Source: Bacillota bacterium
GTDB lineage: Bacteria > Bacillota_A > Clostridia > Peptostreptococcales > Anaerovoracaceae
Length of the DNA: 9,709 bases
Assembly (NCBI GenBank): GCA_017457585.1
Contig: JAFTHD010000112.1
Coordinates: forward strand, 1 to 9,709
Direction: 5' to 3'
In this document: positions 7,869-9,709 of the stretch, piece by piece
How positions within the stretch are numbered: position 1 is the first letter of the stretch
Layout of the letters: the number at the start of each line of letters is the position of its first letter
The notes under the pieces: model-generated
Databases searched by the model: none
Told to the model about the DNA's origin: nothing
Seen by the model: only the letters and a program-made list of their open reading frames with translations
Translations under genes and position numbers: made by a program

Positions 7869-8681
7869 TCAGCCCTCGTCACTTTTACACGCAAGCCGCT
7901 TCGCTTCTTCGATAAGCGGCTTTTTTTCATTGTGAATCCGCTCTTCAATCACCGCATTCAAAAGCCCGTCAAGTATCCTGCCCACTTCAGGCCCCTCAAC
8001 ACCGCACTCCCTGATGATGTCGTTGCCGTCAACGAGGAGATCCTTCAGTTTGAAGCACTCTTCTTCCGCCAGTATCTTTTCGAGCATAATCTTGATTTCG
8101 TCAAATCGCTGAATCAGTTCCGGAATCACGTGCCCTGTTGCCAGATTGTCCGCCCTTTTGATCTCCAGCAGTTCAAAGAGCACCTCCGGGCCGAACTTTC
8201 TCAGCCACTTCTTGAGAAGCTTCGGATCTTTGCGGAACAGAAGATCGTGATACTTTGTGAGGAGCGTGACTCTTTCGATTGTGAAGGAATCTGCTTTGAG
8301 ACCTTTTAGAATCTCCTCCGTGTGCTCTGCGCTTACGGCAGGATGCCCGAAAAAGTGTCCGATTCCCTCTTCATCAATCGTGAATGTGTCCGGTTTGCCC
8401 ACGTCATGGAGGAGTCCTGCAAGCCGCATGTACACTTTGTTCTCGTCCGTCACGCGGAGCGCCTGCATACACTTTATGCAGTGGGTCAGCACGTCATATT
8501 TATGATACGGATTCTGCTGGCCAAATCCGTCCATGGCTTCGATATGCGGAATCACTGCGCCGAGAATTCCCACATACCTGCTAATAGCGTCTCCTGCAAA
8601 AGGGGCAACAATCAATTTCTTGAGTTCTGAGAAAATCCGCTCCCTCGAAATGTTGACTAGCAAATTTTTGCAGGAAAACAT
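7869..8681 (-). CDS. cca: CCA-adding enzyme, C-terminal body and HD-domain fragment
   Basis: This 270-residue open frame has an ATG start and continues the cca frame after the TAG. NISRERIFSELKKLIV (10-25) is the usual neck region that binds tRNA. An HD phosphohydrolase domain follows, with HDVGKPDTF (92-100), His109, the GHP triplet (112-114) and His120 as likely metal ligands. In enzymes such as E. coli Cca this domain has phosphatase or phosphodiesterase activity. The last codons overlap the plus-strand terminator hairpin, and the stop is TGA. Confidence 0.75.
   Translation of the reverse strand: MFSCKNLLVNISRERIFSELKKLIVAPFAGDAISRYVGILGAVIPHIEAMDGFGQQNPYHKYDVLTHCIKCMQALRVTDENKVYMRLAGLLHDVGKPDTFTIDEEGIGHFFGHPAVSAEHTEEILKGLKADSFTIERVTLLTKYHDLLFRKDPKLLKKWLRKFGPEVLFELLEIKRADNLATGHVIPELIQRFDEIKIMLEKILAEEECFKLKDLLVDGNDIIRECGVEGPEVGRILDGLLNAVIEERIHNEKKPLIEEAKRLACKSDEG
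7893..7927 (+). terminator. Intrinsic terminator for the DUF815 ATPase transcript
   Basis: A perfect 9-bp stem AAGCCGCTT (7893-7901) / AAGCGGCTT (7914-7922) with a 12-nt loop runs into seven T residues (7921-7927) on the plus strand. The hairpin lies about 190 nt after the ATPase stop, inside the last codons of the convergent cca gene. Confidence 0.85.
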
Positions 8682-8696: not shown

Positions 8697-9233
8697 CTAT
8701 TCTATTTCAAAGCCGAGCTGCCCTGCGAATCTTACAGCCCTCATGATCCGCAAAGGATCCTCTGTAAATCTCTTTTCAGGATCGCCAACCGCTCTGATTA
8801 TACCTCGGCTTATATCCTTTGCACCACCAAAAGGGTCTGTCAGCCTGCCCGCAGAAGACAGTGCGATTGCGTTCATGGTAAAGTCCCTGCGTGCCAGGTC
8901 GTCTCTTACATCCTTTACGAACTCAACTTTGTCGGGATGTCTGAAGTCTCCATATTCCCCATCGCTTCTGAACGTAGTTATTTCAACGGGTATGCCTTCC
9001 CAAAGGAGCGTCACGGTCCCGTGTTTAAGACCCGTCTCAACTATCCTGTTTCCTGCAAACACGGCTTCGACTTCGTCCGGAGTCGCACTTGTTGTAACAT
9101 CAATATCCCCGGCTTCACGTCCCATGATGGCATCGCGAACACAGCCGCCCACGAAATAGCCCTCATAGCCGGCTCGTTCAAGTTTCTTAATAACCTCACC
9201 CTCAGGAGAGATGATTAGCTGCATGATGTCCAT
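8697..9233 (-). CDS. cca: CCA-adding enzyme, N-terminal catalytic head fragment
   Basis: These 178 residues hold every catalytic motif of a class II nucleotidyltransferase. They are GG..R (Gly29, Gly30, Arg33), the metal-binding DxD (Asp43, Asp45 in AGDIDVTT), VEITTFR (83-89), the RRDFTMNA motif (115-122) that templates the incoming nucleotide, and EDPLRIMRAVRFA (158-170). The fragment ends at LGFEIE followed by TAG. Without the neck and body it should not hold tRNA well on its own. Confidence 0.8.
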   Translation of the reverse strand: MDIMQLIISPEGEVIKKLERAGYEGYFVGGCVRDAIMGREAGDIDVTTSATPDEVEAVFAGNRIVETGLKHGTVTLLWEGIPVEITTFRSDGEYGDFRHPDKVEFVKDVRDDLARRDFTMNAIALSSAGRLTDPFGGAKDISRGIIRAVGDPEKRFTEDPLRIMRAVRFAGQLGFEIE

Positions 9234-9258
9234 ATTCCTACGCTCCTTTTCACATTCC

Positions 9259-9264
9259 ATTATA
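9259..9264 (-). promoter_or_regulatory. Candidate -10 box of cca
   Basis: A perfect TATAAT on the minus strand lies 26 nt upstream of the cca start codon, with the AAAGGAG ribosome site between. No good -35 box is found at 17-18 nt (GTGCTT is the nearest), so the promoter is either weak or helped by a factor bound upstream. The inverted-repeat array begins 60 bp further upstream. Confidence 0.5.
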
Positions 9265-9325
9265 CACCGCTGCTGCCATAAAAGCACAGCGCAACTGCAG
9301 TTTCCCTAAAACGAATGGTGACTCA

Positions 9326-9553
9326 TACCATAATCGAGCACGAGTTGTGAAATATGGTAGTTTTTTACCATAGTTTAAATGACATTCACAGATATGGTAA
9401 CATTCCCCGTATAATACCCCTTCTTTTCTACCATATTTCGCAAAGCAATTACTAATATGGTAAATTCCTTTCATTTATCTACCATTGAAGCTTGTGATTT
9501 TATCTTTATGGCAAATTTCTACCATATTTCAAAATTTACATACCGTTATGGTA
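9326..9553. repeat. Array of five TACCATA-N20-TATGGTA inverted-repeat units
   Basis: Five units of 34 bp lie at 9326-9359, 9366-9399, 9429-9462, 9480-9513 and 9520-9553. Each starts with TACCATA and ends with its reverse complement TATGGTA, with exactly 20 nt between in all five. Unit 4 is degenerate (TACCATT / TATGGCA). The 20-nt interiors are unrelated in sequence, apart from TTTC next to the left arm in units 3 and 5. The gaps between units are 6, 29, 17 and 6 nt. The array fills most of the 390-bp spacer between cca and the next gene. The rest of that spacer holds only the two promoters and AT-rich sequence. A multi-site protein-binding region is the simplest reading; the protein is unknown. 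Confidence 0.85.
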
Positions 9554-9611
9554 AATAACTTGCGCACAGTATTCGAATCCAGCACGCAGCTACAATTATT
9601 TTCCATTTTAC

Positions 9612-9640
9612 TTGCATTTTCTCCTCCGAAAATGTATAAT
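9612..9640 (+). promoter_or_regulatory. SigA-type promoter of the right-edge gene
   Basis: TTGCAT (9612-9617) and a perfect TATAAT (9635-9640) are 17 nt apart, giving a predicted start near 9647 and a leader of about 33 nt. The last inverted-repeat unit ends 58 bp upstream of the -35 box, a distance suited to an activator or a looping repressor. Confidence 0.75.
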
Positions 9641-9679
9641 TTTTCCAAACCGTTATTGATTACAAAAAGGAGGCGATGG

Positions 9680-9709
9680 ATGGAACACCGCATACGCTCG
9701 GCAAGGGAC
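9680..9709 (+). CDS. Start of an unidentified gene, cut by the right edge
   Basis: Only ten codons are visible (MEHRIRSARD), too few to name a family. The call rests on a textbook ribosome site, AAGGAGG at 9667-9673, six bases before the ATG, and on the strong promoter upstream. A second ATG at 9676 in another frame is only two bases from that site and is less likely. Being divergent from cca and next to the inverted-repeat array, it may encode the protein that uses the array, but this is a guess. Confidence 0.6.
   Translation, partial: MEHRIRSARD

Follow-up and report, generated by a model that had tools for sequence, protein, structure and literature searches.

The DNA upstream of cca in the window, the whole stretch of 9,709 nucleotides analysed here, carries a five-unit array built from the inverted words TACCATA and TATGGTA. 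With a confidence somewhat better than even, this array is regarded as belonging to a class of elements dispersed between genes in this genus of Bacillota, which would act as scaffolds for a putative DNA-bending protein. The array words differ between related genomes while the geometry stays, and there is strong evidence both that this geometry is kept and that the elements are dispersed.

The array of the window and its genes

The window is a housekeeping stretch, in which a family search identified rex, acpP, an ABC-F gene, tsaD, rimI, tsaB, tsaE, cca and an AAA gene, while a pseudouridine synthase and a DUF815 label for the AAA gene were assigned by eye. The array is located between the minus-strand cca and a plus-strand open reading frame (ORF) that leaves the window (Table 1). 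The cca gene consists of two ORFs separated by one in-frame TAG (8697-8699, minus strand), after which the frame resumes in the ORF at 7869-8681. TAG is not generally recoded, because acpP and tsaE of the window terminate in it, and the split of cca may represent a pseudogene, a sequencing error or readthrough. The promoter scan did not bear out a sigma-70 promoter spotted by eye around 9612-9640.

The original prediction of five TACCATA-N20-TATGGTA units at 9326-9553, with ten 7-mers in strict forward and inverted alternation, was borne out by direct reading and pattern matching. Four units are exact and one contains two mismatches, one in each arm and non-compensating, with eight of the ten 7-mers exact and two bearing one mismatch. 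The forward-to-inverted distance is 27 bp in all five units, and successive inverted words are followed by a forward word at distances of 13, 36, 24 and 13 bp. The interior had been termed invariant, which is correct for its length (N20) but not for its sequence, which differs among the units. The comparison of the unit count with shuffled sequence, also raised earlier, came out in favour of the array: whole-window shuffles gave a mean of 0.13 matches at ≤3 mismatches and five matches in 0 of 200, and dinucleotide shuffles of 9288-9680 (34% GC, n = 2,000) never gave an exact unit or two units at ≤2 mismatches, and in none of them did a different 7-mer form three units with a common spacing.

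Table 1. Positions of the array units and of the flanking coding sequences in the window
Feature	Position	Strand	Description	Basis
Unit 1	9326..9359	+	TACCATA-N20-TATGGTA, exact	direct reading and pattern match
Unit 2	9366..9399	+	exact; 40 bp start-to-start from unit 1; 6-bp gap, compare the pairs of relative G001	
Unit 3	9429..9462	+	exact; 63 bp start-to-start from unit 2	
Unit 4	9480..9513	+	TACCATT / TATGGCA; 51 bp start-to-start from unit 3	pattern match
Unit 5	9520..9553	+	exact; 40 bp start-to-start from unit 4; 6-bp gap	
cca, N-terminal part (tRNA nucleotidyltransferase)	8697..9287	-	upstream side faces the array; in-frame TAG end	
Plus-strand ORF, start	9681..9709	+	ATG at 9681; runs past the window edge	by eye

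Composites of the same word in a relative

The pattern TACCATA-N20-TATGGTA-N3-33-TACCATA was scanned against one genome per species (84,980 species), which returned 22 stretches: eight in the MAG RGIG4357 (termed G001), whose TsaD is 77% identical to that of the window, four in one Defluviitaleaceae MAG, and ten elsewhere, one per record. The 14 stretches outside G001 resemble other repeats or chance and were rejected as arrays of the same kind. Those of the Defluviitaleaceae MAG belong to a different short hairpin repeat, built from GGTACCATACGGTACCAT (L001, L006, L010, L017), and a Pseudodesulfovibrio contig (L003:58-3284) harbors 50 same-strand TACCATA words 64-68 bp apart, which resembles a CRISPR array.

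The search of related genomes advised with the original prediction was thus productive in G001, where 41 sites at ≤2 mismatches were found versus three for the reversed control. Exact doublets of the form TACCA-N24/25-TGGTA-N6-TACCA-N24/25-TGGTA numbered 46 in G001, with none in the control and none in 48 other genomes of the genus, and a narrower doublet pattern in an order-level sample gave eight in G001 and none in 392 other genomes. Within a family sample, the exact single unit was present in five of 197 genomes (11 in G001, three in G193 and one in each of three genomes); the lone exact sites in G049, G135 and G167 and the three in G193 were read and excluded from the array counts. In G193, which belongs to the family but to another genus, GCTACC-word repeats lie around a TACCATA-N20-TATGGTA unit (L039, L044).

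The doublets of G001 fall in roughly 23 intergenic composites, one of which is upstream of cca. Twenty-one loci were read, 19 with full composites and two with the doublet alone (L056, L057); the 20 distinct composites, including that of contig C20, correspond to 21 rows, as C20 was read from two loci. Composites are constructed from four units arranged as two pairs. All 21 rows (20 distinct composites) have 6 bp between the units of a pair, and the pairs themselves are separated by 100-101 bp in 12 rows and 110-112 bp in nine, so that middle gaps are equal or differ by one helical turn. In the best-fitting orientation, two direct A[GA]CAA[AG] motifs lie 27-28 and 59-60 bp past the first pair; both are present in 14 of the 20 composites, one in five and strictly neither in one, and the rest of the sequence is far more variable than the words and motifs. 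CTTCA / TTGAAG motifs were also seen by eye about 10-16 bp beyond the outer words in several composites. No called gene is interrupted by a composite, and two over-long ORF calls enter one (L063, L064). The word and the place common to the window and G001 may reflect common descent.

Other words of the same design in the genus

Reading of 30 cca loci of the genus disclosed arrays of other words, at first in G237, G239 and G223 and later in G207. The array word of G239 is TTTCACCGTTT, with three TTTCACCGTTT-N19 units at the cca locus, and that of G237 is TTAGTGATT, with three TTAGTGATT-N21 units at the cca locus; G223 employs TTTTATGTATA and TTTCAGC, the latter at its cca locus, and G231 employs TATCACGAT, TATCAC, AAGTATCA and GTACAAGA. 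A word-blind search of longer stretches revealed further arrays in G239, G237, G223 and G231, with shuffled controls giving 0 each time. G231 was chosen for its long contigs, and neither it nor G238 was selected on account of an array already known; G238 (172 kb) returned a 62-bp tandem repeat only. The same search found no arrays in 400 kb of G193, only 243-bp tandem repeats, and marked one place in 107 kb of unrelated scan loci, the pattern-selected one in Hymenobacter.

Genome-wide, TTCACC-N27/28-GGTGAA occurs 40 times in G239 (at least one of these units looks like chance), once in G001, and not at all in the control or in six other genomes, while 16 exact TATCAC-N25-GTGATA units were counted in G231 and none in seven other genomes. 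In G231, composites with spacings of 83+72 bp recur at three places, two of which include a unit with one mismatch, and a fourth place has 73+83 bp; four three-unit places of G239 have 126+95, 114+105, 105+116 and 115+94 bp.

Tandem repeats with near-identical interiors were left uncounted (G193 L238, G231 L222/L224, G238 L178 and the alr locus L247), as were the G239 repeat of L151 and L161, the L149 row and G231 L219. The G239 repeat (L161:14240-14545, L151:13-140) is another dispersed repeat, made of nested GCGTTCATT / AATGAACGC hairpins in tandem with near-identical interiors, and the 62-bp repeat of G238 (L178:2805-3060) has TAAAACTAT / ATAGTTTTA arms and resembles tandem duplication of one unit. 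In G201 (L131:753-990), two GATACATT units with an inner spacing of 28 lie close to an IS200-type gene and are separated by 200 bp, or about 19 turns; this pair was found after the helical-period tests and hence is outside them.

Inner spacing and helical phasing

Because the earlier search patterns presupposed the spacing, it was tested with free interior length (about 5-64 bp allowed) at the loci of G001, G239 and G231. Inner spacing is constant for each word: CTACCA pairs of G001 have an interior of 24-25 in 83 of 90 cases, the other seven (60-64) extending into the neighbouring unit, TTCACCG pairs of G239 have 25 in 16 of 18 with one at 24 and one at 26, and TATCAC pairs of G231 have 25 in seven of seven.

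Unit-to-unit distances, which the array search restricted by an upper limit alone, cluster at whole helical turns. For the first 15 spacings, the Rayleigh R was 0.89 at a period of 10.5 bp, and the best value over periods of 9.5-12 was reached by 0 of 20,000 random sets. The G231 spacings of 83, 72 and 166 bp, seen afterwards, fitted the 10.5-bp ladder, as did four of the five G239 classes that were new after the ladder had been seen (79, 92, 104.5, 189 and 250). The final test comprised 26 spacing classes from all families, misfits included, some of them known before the ladder was recognised. Spacings of a single genome that differed by ≤1 bp were pooled, and L212 contributed 73, 52 and 41 bp although two of its four words have no exact partner. 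The best period was 10.50 bp with an R of 0.76, a value matched by 0 of 20,000 random sets, although such probabilities are optimistic, since spacing classes of the same lineage partly depend on one another. The clear misfits are 89 bp (G207) and 79 bp (G239). Natural one-turn variants exist in G001 (100/101 versus 110-112 bp) and in G239 (94/95 versus 104/105 bp). The earlier proposal that geometry is the kept feature is therefore upheld by the inner spacing of each word together with the whole-turn unit distances.

Interior composition and variation of the arms

Units were aligned on their dyads, 38 from G239, 18 from G231 (two with one mismatch) and 82 from G001 (sets of 39 and 43). The AT fraction at the dyad is 0.97 in G239, 0.72 in G231, and 0.96 and 1.00 in the G001 sets. 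Away from the dyad it drops, reaching about 0.2-0.3 at 3.5-6 bp in G001 and G231 and, in G239, about 0.4 at 4-8 bp. A second rise follows at 8-12 bp, where the outer peaks overlap the fixed words in part. In each of the four sets the central AT was higher than in shuffled interiors: none of 5,000 shuffles reached the observed value for G239 or either G001 set, and p was 0.021 for G231. The interior sequence had been considered free, a view contradicted by this dyad-centred AT/GC pattern in the three relatives, the five units of the window being too few and too AT-rich to display it. An AT-rich dyad with GC-rich flanks may indicate a bend of the DNA around a protein.

Changes just inside the words affect one arm far more often than they are compensated in the other, at 15:1 in G239, 13:1 in G231 and 133:3 in G001. 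Arm pairing at 28 positions was mostly at or below the permuted-arm level, and six positions exceeded it by at least 0.08 (7, 11 and 14 of G231, 15 of G239, and 12 and 15 of G001, the last with 0.50 versus 0.36). Single compensated units exist, namely the third unit of L123 and the second unit of L215. The window array folds better than shuffles (RNA z -4.73, DNA z -3.38), an effect which repeated complementary words cause anyway, and no Rfam match at gathering scores was obtained for 12 sources, nor any match for 9200-9709 at E ≤ 1. Arms that mostly mutate independently argue against hairpins, and with the preference for whole B-DNA turns they agree with the original view of a site acting as DNA rather than RNA. 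Moreover, the fixed inner spacing, the whole-turn distances and the mostly independent arms fit one assembly gripping both words.

Genomic placement, gain and loss

Arrays lie upstream of cca in three of 29 relatives (G207, G237, G239), in addition to G001 and the window, which by rough estimate is not clearly above the genome-wide array density. A special tie to cca could thus not be sustained, since upstream arrays occur in just these three of 29 and others lie between convergent genes, and a private cca element is ruled out by the dispersal in G001 and the placement elsewhere.

The genes flanking 21 loci of G001 are co-directional at 15, divergent at three, convergent at two and unresolved at one. 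Arrays of the same design were also found between convergent genes in relatives, and 12 arrays (14 rows) of G239 and G231 overlap no called gene. One G223 array is upstream of an XRE-like regulator, named by eye, and the genes neighbouring the arrays have no visible common theme. Arrays adjoin alr in G001 and G231; a link to alr was rejected, as 0 of 29 other alr loci have arrays by stricter criteria, and under the loosest criterion the hits were two 6-mer rows of two units each and a tandem repeat.

In G210 and G227, a gap of about 70 bp without an array separates cca from its divergent neighbour, which is DUF5685-like by eye in these relatives. This gap measures 381 bp in G207, where it contains a TGGGYGTG array, and 555 bp in G001, where it contains a TACCA composite. 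These lengths indicate that arrays come or go at the cca locus, where G207 and G001 hold different words in the same gap; presence and absence at orthologous sites was observed at this one locus.

Comparison with known systems and alternative explanations

A transcription-factor operator array, in which a regulator on the five sites would control cca, the plus-strand gene or both by looping, accords with the position of the window array upstream of both, with the arrays upstream of cca in G001, G207, G237 and G239, and with that upstream of the XRE-like regulator. Lrp-type wrapping regulators and phased operator arrays likewise have several symmetric sites on one helix face of bent DNA. However, the arrays described here occur in dozens of copies per genome and also between convergent genes, so they are not confined to promoter regions, which argues against promoter operators as a general role; the mostly co-directional flanks in G001 (15 of 21) and the neighbours without a common theme add to this, and the operator explanation appears rather unlikely. 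Site-specific recombination or integration was considered as well, because the paired inverted sites and the two direct AGCAA-type middle motifs resemble the layout of attP and res accessory-site regions, which contain paired inverted sites at fixed, helix-dependent spacing over 100-260 bp. Against it stand the many copies per chromosome, roughly 23 composites in G001, and the finding of no linked recombinase common to the arrays, one of ten scanned G001 neighbour genes being a serine recombinase. In addition, the window array matched nothing among plasmids or phages, and viral contigs contained neither the TACCA doublet nor the G239 unit, only one lone G231-type site; one viral stretch with the window word resembles, on reading, an unrelated AT-rich repeat. 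The recombinase, partition and phage readings offered earlier hence gained no support, and recombination sites are judged very unlikely. A row of transcribed RNA hairpins would be suggested by the perfect 7-11 bp arms, the few compensated changes and the folding, but arms that are independent at most tested positions, spacing that follows the B-DNA helix and the negative Rfam searches render it extremely improbable.

MITEs are elements of 70-300 bp (PMC3733652), and the arrays resemble them in being non-coding, intergenic and present in several to many copies. A MITE-like element whose units are transposase sites, whose phasing serves a transposition complex and which has no host role would explain the multi-copy, fixed-plan composites between genes in G001, G239 and G231 and their presence or absence at the cca locus. 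Yet 19 composites of G001 revealed no target-site duplication, the best flank match being not above permuted flanks, no transposase linked to the array words was found, and the copies, strongly diverged while their lengths stay, share words and lengths more than sequence, so that this explanation is held to be unlikely. Two PD-(D/E)XK nuclease-family transposase-like genes lie near G001 composites (L061:4009-4806, L062:3411-4250). REPs are described as GTAG- or CGTC-tagged stem-loops with stems of 5-13 bp and loops of 2-20, preserved as palindromes and mostly RAYT-linked (PMC2817692, PMC3733652, PMC6006769), and BIMEs as binding the nucleoid proteins IHF and gyrase (PMC2817692). The arrays share with REP, REPIN and BIME repeats the dispersal between genes of palindromic units in alternating orientation, the multi-unit composites and the species-specific differences. 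They differ in having lineage-specific words with one fixed interior length per word (about 15-27 nt), helix-bound spacing, and arms that mostly do not covary, so that palindrome upkeep by compensating changes was not found at the ratios given above. The window words contain no GTAG or CGTC tag; GTAG is contained in the G001 words CTACCA/TGGTAG and not in those of G239, G231, G237 and G223. Spread by a RAYT through single-strand hairpin transposition might be suspected from the sole Y1_Tnp match of G001, 176 bp from a composite, but this RAYT-like gene (L075:1203-2097) is framed by its own 28-nt terminal inverted repeats, which contain GGGGACGG and are unrelated to TACCA, rather than by the array repeat. 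Furthermore, no Y1_Tnp match was obtained in the array-bearing G207, G223, G237 and G239, whose assemblies are possibly incomplete. A REP/RAYT origin was accordingly rejected as highly improbable. In titles and abstracts of the literature, most subscription papers being outside reach, no helically phased dispersed palindromes were described.

Proposed scaffold and its meaning

In the preferred explanation, a scaffold for a DNA-bending protein, each unit of 34-43 bp would be a dyad-symmetric site for the putative protein, a dimer or larger, which would hold both words and bend the DNA between them. With units at or near whole turns, the bound proteins would share one face, and roughly 150-260 bp would be folded into a single nucleoprotein body, wrapped or looped. 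The word would belong to the lineage, presumably tracking the specificity of the protein, while the spacing rules are kept, and the elements would multiply as composites and settle between genes in any orientation. We infer such a protein, its bending and wrapping of the DNA, the mode of spreading and the role; placement regardless of gene orientation makes it likelier that the main role is that of a scaffold of the chromosome, propagated as a miniature element, than that of a promoter operator.

The element is rated as a new variety of dispersed intergenic palindromic elements, and there is a real chance of its being a new kind. A bolder proposal, which is advanced tentatively and is on the whole doubtful, is a chromosome-wide nucleoprotein system unlike REPs, MITEs and operator arrays, in which bending proteins with private words would act on scattered, phased scaffold sites. 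Rapid replacement of the word would set close relatives apart, whereas the bending at the dyad, the inner spacing and the whole-turn unit distances would persist, and protein and site would coevolve in the manner of a self-propagating scaffold.

If the scaffold explanation is right, dispersed intergenic DNA would be conserved in geometry rather than in sequence, and ordinary repeat and motif searches would therefore tend to miss such arrays. Since the words differ among relatives while the helical rules stay, the coevolution of a scaffold or miniature element with its binding protein becomes testable, and the one-turn variants of G001 and G239 would provide ready natural material on phasing.
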